Of a DNA stretch of 45,494 nt, positions 11,237 through 37,493 are shown piece after piece. The DNA is taken from the NCBI GenBank assembly GCA_020349885.1, contig CP070701.1, forward strand, positions 2,238,938 to 2,284,431. The letters are read 5' to 3'. A program made the translations under genes and the position numbers. The notes under the pieces were generated by a model, which worked only from the letters and a program-made list of their open reading frames with translations, ran no database searches and was not told where the DNA came from. Source of the DNA: Acidobacteriota bacterium (GTDB lineage Bacteria > Acidobacteriota > G020349885). Position 1 is the stretch's first letter. Each line of letters opens with the position of its first letter.

Positions 11237-11989
11237 ATGATTGTTTACAAGACGCGCGAAGAACTTGCCATTATGAACGAAGCGAACCGCATCGTCCGGA
11301 AGACCCTCAAGCGGCTTACCGAGGTCATCGAGCCGGGAGTTACAACGTATGACCTTGAACAGACGGCGGAGGCGTGCCTTCGAGAAGCCGGGGCCGAGCC
11401 CGCCTTTAAGGGCTACCGGGGATTCCCATGCTGCTTGTGCGTTTCCCTCAACGACGAGGTCGTGCACGGGATTCCCTCCAAGAAGCGAGCCCTGCGCAGT
11501 GGTGACGTCGTCAGTATGGATTTTGGCGTGGTGTGGAAAGGCTACTACGGAGATTCGGCCGTTACAGTGCCCGTGGGCGAGGTGAGCGAAGAGCGGCGGC
11601 GCCTCATCGACGTCACGAGCGGGTCGCTTCAGCGGGGAATCGAGAAGGTGAGGGCAGGGGGGCATGTTTCGGACATTTCCCATGCTGTGCAGACGTTCGT
11701 CGAATCACACCAATTTTCCGTCGTGCGGGACTTTGTAGGCCACGGTATTGGCACCGCTCTGCACGAGGATCCTCAGGTGCCCAATTACGGCCCTCCCGGG
11801 CGCGGTCCGCGCCTGGAGCCCGGCGTGGTGCTTGCCATAGAGCCTATGGTTGCGGAGAAAGACAGCGAGGTGTTCGTGGACGGCAACGGATGGACGGCGC
11901 GCACGCGGGACGGCGGCTATGCGGCCCATTTCGAGCGGTCGGTCGCCGTTACGGAAAACGGTCCCTGGATTTTGGGTCAAGAAGGGTGA
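11237..11989 (+). CDS. map: Methionine aminopeptidase, type I
   Basis: 250 residues; removes the initiator methionine from nascent proteins. The pita-bread fold and its metal ligands are visible in [18 protein letters not shown] (two Asp), [20 protein letters not shown] (His), LAIEPM (Glu) and [10 protein letters not shown] (Glu). [12 protein letters not shown] carries the substrate-side histidine. The start is ATG 11237, 12 nt after adk, with AT-rich sequence and no Shine-Dalgarno upstream. The stop overlaps the infA ATG by 1 nt. Confidence 0.95.
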
Positions 11990-15168: not shown

Positions 15169-16602
15169 TTACTGCTTTTTTGGTCCGCCTCCGATGCCGA
15201 AGAAGCGCTGGAAGTTGCGGGCGATGCTGATGCGGATGAGGAACGAGTGGCCTTTCGCATCCTGCTTGTCGAACGTCCACTCCGACCGCGTCCCCATTTC
15301 GCCCACCGCCTTTTTCCCCGTGGCGAGAAAGCCGCTGTCGTCAAAGGGCATCAAGAAATCGCGAACCTCGAAATTAACCACCCACCGGGGACTCATCTGC
15401 CAGCGCACGCCCCCACCGAAAGTTATGACGGTCGCATCGTGGAACTCGAAGTCAAAAAAACTCAGGGCTTTTTGCGCGTTCGTGCACGCGGTTGCGTTGT
15501 AGAGGGGATCACTAACATCGCAGATGCCGCTTCCGTTCCCCATTTCGTCCACAGAACCGGCCAGTTTTTGAAATTCGTTAAATTGGCCGAATTGATTCAA
15601 GCATCTCTGATCGGTTAGAGCGTTTGAATCACTGGGATCGCAAAGTTGGCGTACGTGGCCTCGAAGGAGGAAACTGTCGCTGGAGCCGAAAACATAGCCC
15701 CCTCCCCCCACAGCGTAGAAGGTGACCGGGCGCAGTCGTTGGCGCTTGTTGAGTTGGGTGTAGATGTAATTCACGGACACGGTCGTGTAGGCGTACTCGC
15801 CCTCCGCTTCTAGGCCGTACCATCCCATGGGGAGGGTCAGCTTCGTGCCACCGAAATTGAGAGACACGGGCAGGGCATCACTTCCCGAAGAGACGCCAAA
15901 GGTGCGGTTGTAATCGGTTTTGAATTGGTTAACGTTGAGTTCGAAGCCGTGTCGTCCTTGGACTTCCACGGACGTACCGTCGTCGGCCTCGCCTATTCCG
16001 CGGAGGCGATACAAAATATAGAAACCGTACGCTAGGGTGTCTTTCGAAGACGCGCTCCCCGTGAGAACCATACGCCCCGTTTGAAGGCCCAACTCCCACT
16101 GCCGCCAGGAAGGGACGGCTTCCTCCAGAGGCACTTCTTCGATTTCCTCTATCTCCACAACCTCGTCTTCAATTTCCATGCCCTCGGTTTCCTCTATCTC
16201 CGGGGCCTCTTCTTCGATTTCCCCGATGCCCTCGATTTCCTCTATCTCCGGGGCCTCCTCTTCGATTTCCCCGATGCCCTCGATTTCCTCTATCTCTGCC
16301 TCGGGAGCCTCGGCTTCGGTTTCGCCGATGCCCTCGGGTTCCTCTACCTCCGCCTCAGGGAGCTCGCCCTCGGTTTCGCCGATGCCCTCGGGTTCCTCTA
16401 CCTCCGCCTCGGGAGCCTCGCCCTCGGTTTCGCCGATGCCCTCGGGTTCCTCTACCTCTGCCTCGGGAGCCTCACCCTCGATTTCCCCGATGCCCTCGAT
16501 TTCCTGGCCCAACGCAGTCACGCAAAGAAGTATGGAAAGGAAAAAAAAGAGCACACCCCTTCCCGTCCAGAAAGGCTTTTCACAATAAGAGCGTGGACTC
16601 AT
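15169..16602 (-). CDS. Outer-membrane beta-barrel protein with acidic tandem-repeat linker
   Basis: 477 residues. A hydrophobic signal segment (GVLFFFLSILLCVTALG, residues 16-32) is followed by about 120 residues of Glu/Ile/Gly/Pro repeats. The repeats fall into two types: about four 18-residue units of the EGIGETEGEAPEAEVEE kind, then two 16-residue EGIGEIEEEAPEIEE units. The remaining about 310 residues alternate aromatic and polar residues as in a porin-like barrel (WELGLQTGRMVL, AYGFYILYRLRG, FGGGVRWQMSPRWVVNFEVRD, FLIRISIARNFQRFFG). Two loops contain paired cysteines. The C-terminal FGIGGGPKKQ is not a classical aromatic barrel end. Function is unknown; it resembles the barrel at 31950-33293. 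The ATG lies 9 nt from a consensus promoter and has no Shine-Dalgarno. Confidence 0.75.
   Translation of the reverse strand: MSPRSYCEKPFWTGRGVLFFFLSILLCVTALGQEIEGIGEIEGEAPEAEVEEPEGIGETEGEAPEAEVEEPEGIGETEGELPEAEVEEPEGIGETEAEAPEAEIEEIEGIGEIEEEAPEIEEIEGIGEIEEEAPEIEETEGMEIEDEVVEIEEIEEVPLEEAVPSWRQWELGLQTGRMVLTGSASSKDTLAYGFYILYRLRGIGEADDGTSVEVQGRHGFELNVNQFKTDYNRTFGVSSGSDALPVSLNFGGTKLTLPMGWYGLEAEGEYAYTTVSVNYIYTQLNKRQRLRPVTFYAVGGGGYVFGSSDSFLLRGHVRQLCDPSDSNALTDQRCLNQFGQFNEFQKLAGSVDEMGNGSGICDVSDPLYNATACTNAQKALSFFDFEFHDATVITFGGGVRWQMSPRWVVNFEVRDFLMPFDDSGFLATGKKAVGEMGTRSEWTFDKQDAKGHSFLIRISIARNFQRFFGIGGGPKKQ
16138..16503 (-). repeat. In-frame tandem repeats encoding the acidic linker
   Basis: About 365 nt of tandem repeats inside the barrel gene. 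The 54 nt unit (18 codons) recurs about four times, and a 48 nt unit (16 codons) recurs twice nearer the barrel. The units are nearly identical at DNA level: the complement of a GGTTCCTCTACCTC-type block recurs. This implies recent slippage or unequal exchange. Because the unit is a multiple of three and lacks stops, long reading frames are also open on the + strand here; these are not genes. Confidence 0.85.
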
Positions 16603-33307: not shown

Positions 33308-33438
33308 CTAGTGCCGCTCCAATGAACCGCATGGCGGGCCTCCGCCGCGAGCGCCGTTTGCCCTTTCCTGTTTTCCAAGCATCGCTCGCGCCGCTTGGCG
33401 TCCGCTTCACTAGGCAATTCAAGCTGAAACGGCACTAG
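33308..33438. repeat. 131 nt unit with 9 bp terminal inverted repeats between convergent genes
   Basis: CTAGTGCCG (33308-33316) is exactly inverted at CGGCACTAG (33430-33438), and a CACTAGG word also lies inside the right end. The right arm contains the stop codon of the convergent M23 gene. It fills nearly the whole 141 nt between the two genes. It may be a MITE-like remnant or act as a bidirectional stop signal; no T-run supports an intrinsic terminator. Confidence 0.4.
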
Positions 33439-35420
33439 CGCACCGTAAAGCGAAACTCCCGCGTGGCGGCGTTCCCGGCGCGGTCGGCCGCCTCGATGCG
33501 CAGCGTATGCTCGCCGCGGGAAGGCCGTATTTCCTCGTACGCCAGGTTCAAAAAAACCTTGAAGCGGTCCGGGTCGTAATCGCCCCGACGGGCGACGCCG
33601 TCTAGAACAAAACGCACGCTCTCGTAGTCGACGCCGCTTCCCCGGTCACAGGCGCGGGCATGCCATTCCACGGCGGAAGCAGGGACGCTCTGCCCCGGCC
33701 TGGGATGTCGCGGCTCGATCACGGGAGGCACCCGGTCCTCCATCAGGGCGTAGCGCGCTCCATAGGGAATCGAAACGCTCGTTTCCCGCCCCTCACACTC
33801 GCCCTCAAGATAGATCCATCGCTCCTCACGAAAGGCTTTTCGATACCACCCGATTCGCCGCGATTCCCGGCACACGGAAGGCAGTAGGCCCGTCAGGCGG
33901 GGCGCGTGCCGAAACGGCATACCTTCGGGAAGAACGTCGAGCGCCGCGAAAGGCGCCAGCTCTTCTGCGGGAGGGATGTCCTCGACGACGCGCGCCCATA
34001 CCGCGCCGGGCTCCCATGCAGCGTCTGCGGGGACGAGCAGCTGAAACCGGGGCGGCGCGGCAAGGGTCACAGGCTCGCGCCCCGCCCAAGCGAACAAGAG
34101 CGGCGCTTCAAAGACGGAGCGGCCGCGACGGCGCACCTGCACCATGCCTCCGGCTGCGTCGTTTCCAAGAGGAAGCGTGGCGAAGGCGCGCTCCCCGGCC
34201 CGGAAAAAAGCTGCCTCCGCAAGCACGTGCCCGCCTTGATGCAGCGACGCAGTAAGGGGAAGGGAGGAATCGGCCTCGAGCGCCAGGAATCGGGCGGAAG
34301 GGTGGAGCGTAACTTGTCCCGCGGAGCGAGGATCCTCGACTTGTCGGGACTCGTGCAGGCGAGTTGGGAGCGGCGATTCTTCGGAAAAAGAGGCGCTTTT
34401 GCCGCCGGCCCCCTCCCCGGCCGGGGAAGGCCGAACGCCACGCAGGATGACGCTGCGCACCGAGGCGTTTCCCGAAAAATCCTCCGCCCGGAGCCGCAGA
34501 ACAAATTCGCCCTCTTCGCGCAGCACGAGCCTTTGAAACCCCTCCGAATCGGGGGGCACGGCTCCAAGGCGGTACCCGTAGACCGCCGGTTGGGGAAAGC
34601 AGAACGCCAAATGGTGAAGCAAGCCTCCGGCCGAGGGGTCATCGTAGGAAAACGAACTGACTTTCGCTTCAGAAAAGGGGCGGTCGTTGAGCTTCGCCCC
34701 CCACGTGTAAAGACCACACCGGGCCCCCCGGGCGCACGGGTCGTACGCCAACAGCACGAGCTCCCACTCTCCCCATAGGCTCATCGCGGGAACCTGCCTG
34801 CGGCGGAAGTCCACCCGATGCGGAAGCGGAAGCCCCTTGATGCGCGCGTCCGCGCTCCGGGGCAGGAACATGAGCCCTTCGACGCGAGGCGGTGCCGAGT
34901 CGGAGGGGAGAGGCAGCCTGGCCGCGAAGGGATGAACGAGAGTTTCCATGCCCCGCCGGAATTCCACGTGCAGATGTGGCGGCCCCGCCCCGCTTTCTCC
35001 CGAATAGCCGATGGTCTGGCCACGCTCAACCGCGAGGGACGGCTCCGGATAGATGTCCCCGGGATACGGCGTGTCGCGCGCCCGCTGATATGTTCGAACG
35101 AGCGTTTCGAGGCCAAGCGTATCTTCCTCGAACCGCTCCAAATGGGCATAGACGCTAACGAGTCCGTTTGGATGCTCCACATAGAGCGCACGGCCGTAGC
35201 CGCGCCGCTCCACCTTGAGGCGAACGATGCGGCCTCGCTCGACGGCGCGGACTTCCAAGCCGGTGCGGCCGAACGTGCTCAGGTCGATGCCCGCATGGAG
35301 GCGAAGGCCACGGTATTCTCCGAAGGTCGCGGTCAAGGCCCTGGATTTGGGAAGGGGCCACTCCAAGGGGGCCAATTCTTGGGAAGCGGCGAAACCGAGG
35401 GTCCAAACCCCGAGCGCCAC
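33435..35420 (-). CDS. M23/LytM-domain metallopeptidase with long C-terminal region
   Basis: 661 residues. The N-terminus is a short hydrophobic secretion signal (ALGVWTLGFAASQ) from GTG 35420; it lacks the usual positive residues, so the true start may be a little upstream. The LytM domain (about 25-165) keeps all zinc and catalytic residues: H42/D46 in HAGIDLS, H93 in YAHLERF and H149/H151 in PPHLHVEF. It should cleave peptidoglycan cross-bridges in the periplasm. The remaining about 490 residues are beta-rich, perhaps Ig-like (EFVLRLRAEDFSGNASVRSVIL; HTLRIEAADRAGNAATREFRFTV). A linker (about residues 325-370) contains GEGAGG and a palindromic repeat element inserted in frame. Confidence 0.82.
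   Translation of the reverse strand: MALGVWTLGFAASQELAPLEWPLPKSRALTATFGEYRGLRLHAGIDLSTFGRTGLEVRAVERGRIVRLKVERRGYGRALYVEHPNGLVSVYAHLERFEEDTLGLETLVRTYQRARDTPYPGDIYPEPSLAVERGQTIGYSGESGAGPPHLHVEFRRGMETLVHPFAARLPLPSDSAPPRVEGLMFLPRSADARIKGLPLPHRVDFRRRQVPAMSLWGEWELVLLAYDPCARGARCGLYTWGAKLNDRPFSEAKVSSFSYDDPSAGGLLHHLAFCFPQPAVYGYRLGAVPPDSEGFQRLVLREEGEFVLRLRAEDFSGNASVRSVILRGVRPSPAGEGAGGKSASFSEESPLPTRLHESRQVEDPRSAGQVTLHPSARFLALEADSSLPLTASLHQGGHVLAEAAFFRAGERAFATLPLGNDAAGGMVQVRRRGRSVFEAPLLFAWAGREPVTLAAPPRFQLLVPADAAWEPGAVWARVVEDIPPAEELAPFAALDVLPEGMPFRHAPRLTGLLPSVCRESRRIGWYRKAFREERWIYLEGECEGRETSVSIPYGARYALMEDRVPPVIEPRHPRPGQSVPASAVEWHARACDRGSGVDYESVRFVLDGVARRGDYDPDRFKVFLNLAYEEIRPSRGEHTLRIEAADRAGNAATREFRFTVR
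34316..34350. repeat. 35 nt palindromic element inside the M23 coding sequence (copy A)
   Basis: It starts GTCCCG and ends CGGGAC; the centre is the perfect palindrome CGAGGATCCTCG. It is 31/35 identical to copy B at 42297-42331. On the minus strand it encodes part of HESRQVEDPRSAGQ in the linker of the M23 protein. Confidence 0.75.
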
Positions 35421-35475: not shown

Positions 35476-35925
35476 TTAAGCGGTTTTGGCTGTTCGGACC
35501 TGGCTATCGTTTGCCGGGGAGTCGTTGGGGGGTGACGGCTGTTGTGAGCCTTCGGGAGGAGAAAGCGGGGCCGAAACCGTCTCGGAAGGTTGTTCCGCGG
35601 TTTTCACCTGCCCCTCCGGGGCTTGGGGCGGCCCAGCCAGGGAAGGCTGCGCCGAGGCTGCTTCGGACGGCTCCTCGTAGGCGATGGAAGGAAGGTCGGG
35701 CCGGCGGTGAACGATTCTTCGCTGTGCCGTGCGAGGAAACCTGCTGAAACGCTTATGGCTTCTTTTCTGAGCTACGCTGCGCTTGATACGCTCCCGCTCG
35801 GCAGGTCGAACGAAAAACGTATGCTGCCGGTACTCGCGCAAAATGTTCTCGCGTTGAACAATGCGCTTGAACCGCTTAATCGCGGAGTCCAGCGTTTCGC
35901 CGTCTCTCAGATCTATAGTAGCCAA
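35476..35925 (-). CDS. rpsU: 30S ribosomal protein S21 with long C-terminal extension
   Basis: 149 residues from TTG 35925. The first about 60 residues are S21 (MATIDLRDGETLDSAIKRF, then ENILREYRQHTFFVRPAE), a small platform protein near the anti-Shine-Dalgarno. The other about 85 residues are an unusual Pro/Ser/Ala/Glu-rich tail (around AQPSLAGPPQAPEGQV and PLSPPEGSQQPSPPNDSP). TTG was chosen because M-A-T-I-D is the family start and GGAG lies 6 nt upstream. The frame is open back to 36060 but that part does not resemble S21. The tail, if translated, more than doubles normal S21 length. Confidence 0.85.
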   Translation of the reverse strand: MATIDLRDGETLDSAIKRFKRIVQRENILREYRQHTFFVRPAERERIKRSVAQKRSHKRFSRFPRTAQRRIVHRRPDLPSIAYEEPSEAASAQPSLAGPPQAPEGQVKTAEQPSETVSAPLSPPEGSQQPSPPNDSPANDSQVRTAKTA

Positions 35926-36050
35926 TCGTTTCTCCTGTTCACAAATTAAAACACCTTTCCGCTCTATGTTTGGTGGTATCCATACGAGCGCCCAGAATTC
36001 TCGGCCAGCCCGGGTCAAGAAAGGAAGCCACAAGGGCATCCACCGCAACC

Positions 36051-36079
36051 AGCATAACACACCTTTCCGGCCAAGTCAA
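36051..36079 (-). promoter_or_regulatory. Promoter for rpsU
   Basis: On the minus strand TTGACT (36079-36074), 17 nt and TATGCT (36056-36051). It would give a leader of about 120 nt before the TTG start. An in-frame ATG lies 11 nt after the -10, so a longer S21 from a leaderless start is formally possible. Confidence 0.5.
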
Positions 36080-36335: not shown

Positions 36336-37244
36336 CTAAAACCGCCGCGTTTCCGCGAGGACGAAATTGCGGGCGTTGATGGGTTTTTGGTTGACCAAAA
36401 TCTCGTAGTGGAGATGGGGCGCCGTGCTCCGGCCCGTGGAGCCGGCGTAGGCAATAACGTCGCCCCGCTGGACGCGCTGGCCTTGCTCTGCGACGGAGCG
36501 GTGGAGGTGGCCGTAGCGCGTCACGTAGCCGAAGCCATGGGAGAGGACGATAGAGTTGCCGTAGCCCGAGCTGTAGCCGCGGCTCGAGACGATGCCGTCG
36601 GCGGGGGCTCTTACGGGCGTGTTCGTGCGAGCGGAGATGTCCACGGCGGCGTGGAAGTCGGGCCGCCCCGTGAACGGGTCGCGCCGCCAGCCATAGCCTC
36701 CGGTAATGATGCCGTCCACGGGCCAGATGGAGGGGATAAAGTTCAGGAGGTGCTGCTTTTTCTCATAGGTTTGCTCGAGTTCCGTAAGGCTCTGCCCGAA
36801 AAGAGACTGCTGGGACTCGATTTCCACGATCTGCCTCGCCGCGGCGGGGGGCAATTCCTGGGCGGGGAAGACGCGCTCTGCGCCGCTTACACCTCCCGCG
36901 CCGCCTACGTAGCTTGCGTCGGAAAGCGTCTCGACGCCCACCATCGTGGCAAGCTTCGCGATGCGCTCCTCGATGGCCTCCTGCGCGTTGCGAAGCGCAC
37001 CGATCTCCGCGACGTAGCGTGTGTTCTCATCCTCCAGCGCCTGAAACTCGACCTCCAGGTTTTCGATGCCGCCCGGCATGTGATAGGTTCGCGTGTAGTG
37101 CAGCGCGAAGTATCCAAAGAGGGCCACGGCCGCCGCACCCATCCACATGGCGGCGCGGAGCGTACGCCGCGAAAACGTCCACCGACGCGGCGCGCCACCT
37201 TCGTCCGAAAACACGATAAAGCTGTACTTCCTGTCGTTCAGCAT
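36336..37244 (-). CDS. Membrane-anchored M23/LytM peptidoglycan endopeptidase
   Basis: 302 residues. It has a cytoplasmic N-terminus (MLNDRKYSFIVFSDEGG), a membrane helix (about 31-48, AAMWMGAAAVALFGYFAL), a coiled coil (about 58-100 and 140-165) and a C-terminal LytM domain. Ligands are H198/D202 (HAAVDIS), H246 (YGHLHRS) and H277/H279 (PHLHYE). The anchor plus coiled coil plus M23 layout resembles division or elongation-linked endopeptidases. ATG 37244 has a G-run (AGGGGGGGGCG) upstream; earlier in-frame sequence is not conserved. Divergent from pal. Confidence 0.88.
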   Translation of the reverse strand: MLNDRKYSFIVFSDEGGAPRRWTFSRRTLRAAMWMGAAAVALFGYFALHYTRTYHMPGGIENLEVEFQALEDENTRYVAEIGALRNAQEAIEERIAKLATMVGVETLSDASYVGGAGGVSGAERVFPAQELPPAAARQIVEIESQQSLFGQSLTELEQTYEKKQHLLNFIPSIWPVDGIITGGYGWRRDPFTGRPDFHAAVDISARTNTPVRAPADGIVSSRGYSSGYGNSIVLSHGFGYVTRYGHLHRSVAEQGQRVQRGDVIAYAGSTGRSTAPHLHYEILVNQKPINARNFVLAETRRF

Positions 37245-37274
37245 AATGCAATGCTTTCGCCCCCCCCTAATATC

Positions 37275-37303
37275 CTTATATACCAAACTGCACCGAATGT
37301 CAA
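37275..37303 (-). promoter_or_regulatory. Promoter for the membrane-anchored M23 gene
   Basis: On the minus strand TTGACA (37303-37298), 17 nt and TATAAG (37280-37275), giving a leader of about 25 nt to ATG 37244. Confidence 0.6.
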
Positions 37304-37353
37304 GTGTAAGCCCTGTAAGGAAAAAAATGGGCGGGCCTAGGCTTTTTCCAGGT

Positions 37354-37406
37354 CCCGATATAGGAAAACGAGGGGGGTGGGGGGCGAAGCACGTTTCTAT
37401 ATCGGG
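37354..37406. promoter_or_regulatory. Long hairpin with G-rich loop between divergent M23 and pal genes
   Basis: CCCGATATAG (37354-37363) pairs with CTATATCGGG (37397-37406), and after a 2 nt bulge AAACG (37366-37370) pairs with CGTTT (37392-37396): 15 pairs in all. The 21 nt loop contains GGGGGGTGGGGGG. It lies upstream of both promoters. A second small stem GGAAAAA/TTTTTCC flanks it at 37319-37349. Confidence 0.6.
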
Positions 37407-37427
37407 GTCAGGGTTCCCGGAACATCG

Positions 37428-37457
37428 TTGCCGCCGCGGAGAGCAATGTGGTAATAT
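37428..37457 (+). promoter_or_regulatory. Promoter for pal
   Basis: TTGCCG (37428-37433), 18 nt, and TAATAT (37452-37457) preceded by TG-G, an extended -10. The leader to ATG 37494 is about 30 nt and carries the ribosome binding site AAAAGGAG. Confidence 0.6.
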
Positions 37458-37493
37458 GGACAGCTTTGTGAAATCCATGAGAAAAGGAGCCCT

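Follow-up and report, generated by a model that had tools for sequence, protein, structure and literature searches.

A single-copy ribosomal protein bS21 with a long acidic and predicted disordered C-terminal extension in an Acidobacteriota genome

The window, i.e., the whole stretch of 45,494 nucleotides from contig CP070701.1 of an Acidobacteriota bacterium (GCA_020349885.1) that was analysed, contains a gene for ribosomal protein bS21 on the minus strand at positions 35476-35925. Translation of the window yields 149 residues followed by a TAA stop codon (35476-35478, minus strand), in agreement with the position, strand and frame given in a preliminary description of this DNA. The N-terminal part is matched by both family models well above their cut-offs, PF01165 (Ribosomal_S21) at residues 3-55 with 58.9 bits versus a Pfam cut-off of 27 and TIGR00030 at residues 3-59 with 58.4 bits versus an NCBIfam cut-off of 28.95, which supports the normal S21 core described earlier. 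Three parts can be distinguished on the minus strand. The core comprises residues 1-59 (35749-35925) as delimited by PF01165, TIGR00030 and the helices of an AlphaFold model; a basic stretch, residues 60-76 (35698-35748), spans the length where a normal S21 ends; and residues 77-149 (35479-35697) form an acidic tail rich in Pro, Ser, Ala, Glu and Gln, recognised by its composition and predicted by AlphaFold to be disordered. In total 90 residues follow the core profile, for which the earlier figure of about 85 was a fair estimate. The net charge is +15 for residues 1-76 and -7 for residues 77-149, and the tail thereby differs from the usual basic S21 end, as had been remarked from the sequence. 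Proteins of the bS21 family usually have an overall length of about 55-75 residues, although the family models set no criterion for length; the protein described here has 149 residues, whereas none of the others read exceeds 75 between the start of the core and the stop. The 2.4 Mb source genome contains a single S21 copy.

The bS21 gene starts with a TTG codon at 35925, preceded at a distance of 6 nt by the Shine-Dalgarno (SD) motif AGGAG (35932-35936, minus strand), and homologous S21 proteins start at the same point. A mechanically called frame of 194 amino acids opens further upstream at GTG 36060. At 36051-36079 (minus strand) a candidate rpsU promoter of sigma-70-like type was found by consensus match (TTGACT-17-TATGCT, with TG before the second hexamer), one match versus 0.3 expected in shuffled sequences. 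A transcript from this promoter match would begin downstream of GTG 36060, which favours the TTG start. The gene lies between two M23 peptidase genes, as the preliminary description had it, with PF01551 matches on both sides: an M23-domain protein downstream (33435-35420, minus strand, 52.8 bits) and an M23 peptidase upstream (36336-37478, minus strand, 109.7 bits). The downstream M23 gene starts 55 nt past the S21 stop codon and is possibly co-transcribed with S21. With M23 genes flanking rpsU, the arrangement is not that of the macromolecular synthesis operon (rpsU-dnaG-rpoD). Elsewhere in Acidobacteriota, S21 has neighbours that are MutS2-like or are PurD, a penicillin-binding transpeptidase or a pyrimidine phosphorylase (a Pfam family was assigned in 7 of 10 ORFs), and neither dnaG nor rpoD was found beside S21 among the 10 ORFs scanned with Pfam at these other loci. 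The position of S21 away from dnaG/rpoD thus seems ordinary for the phylum. A phmmer comparison (E ≤ 1e-5) of the 108 ORFs that neighbour S21 at 34 other loci gave no match to either M23 protein. No known RNA element reached the gathering score within the window.

The AlphaFold model, which was built with four sequences and has a pTM of 0.25, predicts the two basic helices expected of a bS21 core at residues 12-34 and 41-60 and no secondary structure in residues 61-149, where the pLDDT is 54-64 per ten-residue block. Foldseek returned eight matches, all with E > 0.1, the best of them bS21 chains (E 0.16-0.38). Four are bacterial bS21-type chains, two from E. coli 70S ribosomes, one from an E. 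coli 30S subunit and one from the ribosome of the Lyme-disease pathogen, and four are mitochondrial small-subunit chains. A longer protein around an S21 core, as in the present case, is found in chain 5x8p_u, for which the PDB table gives 137 residues and which we take to be chloroplast bS21. It was matched weakly (E 0.13) at residues 48-103, and since this weak S21 match sits so far into the chain, much of its extra length would be N-terminal.

The preliminary description had suggested a survey of S21 length in the phylum. An S21 gene turned up in 58 of 60 genomes of one set and in 375 of the 396 genomes in a phylum-wide draw, both of which include the source genome. Apart from the source genome, S21 was read in 112 genomes, which came from successive phylum searches (57, 20, 24 new and 11 new), and in all of them S21 ends within 17 residues of the core. 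Over 122 other loci, a number that includes repeats and, besides the 112 genomes, four named records, the core is followed by a median of 8 and no more than 17 residues, versus 90 here. The present bS21 is like those of other Acidobacteriota (rpsU; PF01165, TIGR00030) in core length, start, basic helices and single copy and differs from them in its end. All frames of at least 149 codons among the matches listed in the phylum-wide searches were read individually, and each of these, the longest with 451 codons, owes its length to upstream sequence and not to a C-terminal tail. Judged from the S21 read, the bS21 tail is therefore rare in this phylum, though not proven unique. The source genome is the only member of its class among the genomes compared. 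In the literature searched, by titles and the openings of abstracts and with most subscription journals outside its coverage, no long-tailed bacterial bS21 was recognised. The longest normal end, 17 residues after the core, belongs to one of two different S21 genes in a single acidobacterial genome.

Extended ends are not a general habit of this genome, as a Pfam scan of 17 further ribosomal proteins encoded in the window leaves 0-31 residues beyond the match end, with the exception of uS4, whose 62 residues past the match we take to be its normal C-terminus. The bS18 of the source genome, identified by TIGR00165, has 73 residues and the putative bL9, which we name from operon position and sequence, has 148. 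The situation differs for bS6, another protein of the platform. In the source genome 61 residues follow the bS6 core and end in an acidic Ala/Glu/Thr/Pro low-complexity tail, and over 30 Acidobacteriota loci, this one included, the bS6 tails measure 28-157 residues after the core (median 49.5). At three bS6 loci of Acidobacteriota relatives the tail reaches 118-157 residues and contains repeats that are EEAPA-like or acidic. The disordered-looking, acidic and Ala/Pro/Glu-rich tail of bS6 resembles that of bS21, but it belongs to a different protein and is the rule in the loci read, whereas the bS21 tail is unique among the S21 read. Since low-complexity tails are routine on the platform neighbour bS6, the bS21 tail can be regarded as an appendage of a familiar type, attached to a protein on which it is unusual. 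Judged from the sequences compared, what is new here is the low-complexity tail on bS21, the platform of this phylum already having a variable bS6 tail. For E. coli bS6, C-terminal glutamylation by RimK is described in a review (PMC10931766). Disordered and species-specific extensions of ribosomal proteins are also known from Cutibacterium acnes, where bS16, uL4, uL5 and uL22 are reported to have C-terminal extensions of tens of residues, some of them disordered in cryo-EM; C. acnes has no identifiable bS21, and none of these extensions is on bS21 (PMC10085706).

The tail looks real, i.e., a disordered coding region, albeit not with certainty for a sequence known from a single assembly, a scaffold with at least one gap of 100 N. 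Its 73 residues include 14 Pro, 11 Ser, 11 Ala, 7 Glu, 7 Gln and a single Arg. An unlikely alternative holds that the tail has no function and that a normal S21 of about 66-75 residues reads into its 3' region after a recent loss of the stop codon or owing to a sequencing substitution. A single base change would turn Q67, R68 or R69 into a stop codon, the tail occupies the space between the core and the next (M23) gene, and there is but one assembly to judge from. The open frame alone is moreover uninformative, as 48% of the dinucleotide-preserving shuffles of the tail DNA (5000 in total) are also free of stops. The composition, however, is protein-like and argues against a chance open frame as the origin of the tail: Pro, Ser, Ala, Glu and Gln together account for 50 of 73 residues versus a shuffle mean of 33.7, Arg, Gly, Cys and Trp for 4 versus 15.7, and neither value was matched by any of the 5000 shuffles. 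A codon model trained on nine window genes also scores frame 0 of the tail best of all six frames (-0.028 per codon versus -0.112 to -0.224), below the 0.271 of the training genes. With a GC3 of 0.66 versus 0.79 in these genes and a synonymous-codon score that is reached by 3.4% of the shuffles, a weak signal, the support from codon usage is modest. That a sequencing frameshift near 35740 (codon 62) joins S21 to another frame, which the preliminary description had named as the finding that would overturn it, is again compatible with the single assembly and nevertheless very improbable. The two alternative frames on this strand have stops at codons 4, 6, 51 and 107 and at codons 16, 57 and 140, and with none in either frame between codons 57 and 107, an indel at this site would let translation run on to codon 107 or 140; no single indel there restores a normal end at about 65-75. 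A tandem duplication as the origin of the tail was rejected as the search found no tandem repeat, and a weak internal protein similarity in bS21 was dismissed as 34 of 2000 shuffles reach the same level. A sequence search of the PDB gave no homologue of the tail, a scan of a genome collection with core and tail peptides confirmed no relative, and the 9 records of a plasmid search matched residues 1-75 at most, none covering 80% of the query.

bS21 is located where the mRNA meets the anti-Shine-Dalgarno sequence of the 16S rRNA, and the preliminary description had raised the idea that an added flexible tail could affect mRNA selection. In its stronger form the tail is a functional regulator beside the anti-Shine-Dalgarno that alters which mRNAs initiate, e.g., by shielding the 16S 3' end or by recruiting bS1, as an alternative to the bS21/bS18/bS6 control of Bacteroidia. 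For Flavobacterium johnsoniae it was reported that bS21 binds the 3' tail of the 16S rRNA through its C-terminal part, where Tyr54 stacks on A1534, and that loss of this part shifts initiation towards mRNAs with strong SD sequences (PMC9976891). Such contacts are in line with a regulator, as are the length and acidity of the tail and its being unique in the sample. However, the C-terminal region at the 16S 3' tail lies within a short protein in F. johnsoniae and depends on Tyr54, according to the same source (PMC9976891), and the bS21 described here has no Tyr in residues 33-82, as judged by residue range, so that the Tyr54 feature of Bacteroidia is absent. Its SD is the ordinary AGGAG and not the strong, extended rpsU SD of Bacteroidia in an SD-poor genome. 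A simple motif scan found SD-like motifs in 19 of the 25 window genes examined, from which SD use looks normal. Taken together, these observations do not indicate the F. johnsoniae mechanism. Furthermore, bS6 tails of like character are common in the phylum, and we know of no effect of bS6 tails on mRNA selection. A role as regulator thus appears improbable, and an effect of the tail on mRNA selection is possible but unsupported. Doubtful as well, and a little more so, is the extended idea that the bS21 arm and the bS6 tail would surround the mRNA exit and the anti-Shine-Dalgarno with a brush of negative charge that sets which mRNAs initiate; as the genome has a single S21 gene, such a brush would act on every ribosome.

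A mixture of leaderless and SD-led mRNAs had been assumed for this organism. The window offers one candidate for a leaderless transcript, a methionine aminopeptidase-like gene, presumably map as named from sequence and position, with a TATAAT about 11 nt upstream of its ATG (window position 11237). The 16S rRNA gene of the source genome stops near 346,897 at a gap of 100 N, which is followed by non-16S sequence, and the genome is therefore a scaffold despite being given as '1 contig'. The anti-Shine-Dalgarno end of the 16S is lost in this assembly gap, and a pattern search gave no match. An Rfam match that covers 16S from end to end was rejected as marking the true 3' end, as it spans the gap and then sequence unlike 16S.

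The reading that accounts best for these findings is that the genome's only bS21 is probably an otherwise ordinary protein with a lineage-specific disordered extension of about 73 residues and with a probably mild effect. The core would bind the 30S platform in the usual way. The tail, acidic and rich in proline, would exit at the end of the second helix and hang in the solvent, close to where the mRNA leaves and to the 16S 3' end. The likeliest consequence would be that of a mild electrostatic and steric bristle, comparable to the acidic low-complexity tails of bS6; the tail may weakly tune how mRNA, bS1 or other factors bind, or the exchange of bS21, and would not be a selector dedicated to mRNA. 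The C-terminal part of bS21 changes mRNA choice in Bacteroidia, and a bS21 with a natural tail as long as the protein itself could show by truncation whether disordered tails are of consequence on the 30S platform. A neutral tail would be a further example of ribosomal protein ends that tolerate large disordered additions.

Elsewhere in the window, a protein of 477 amino acids (15169-16602, minus strand) begins with a signal-like sequence and has numerous acidic repeats of the EGIGETEGEAPEAEVEEPE type, which precede a domain that by eye resembles an outer-membrane barrel.
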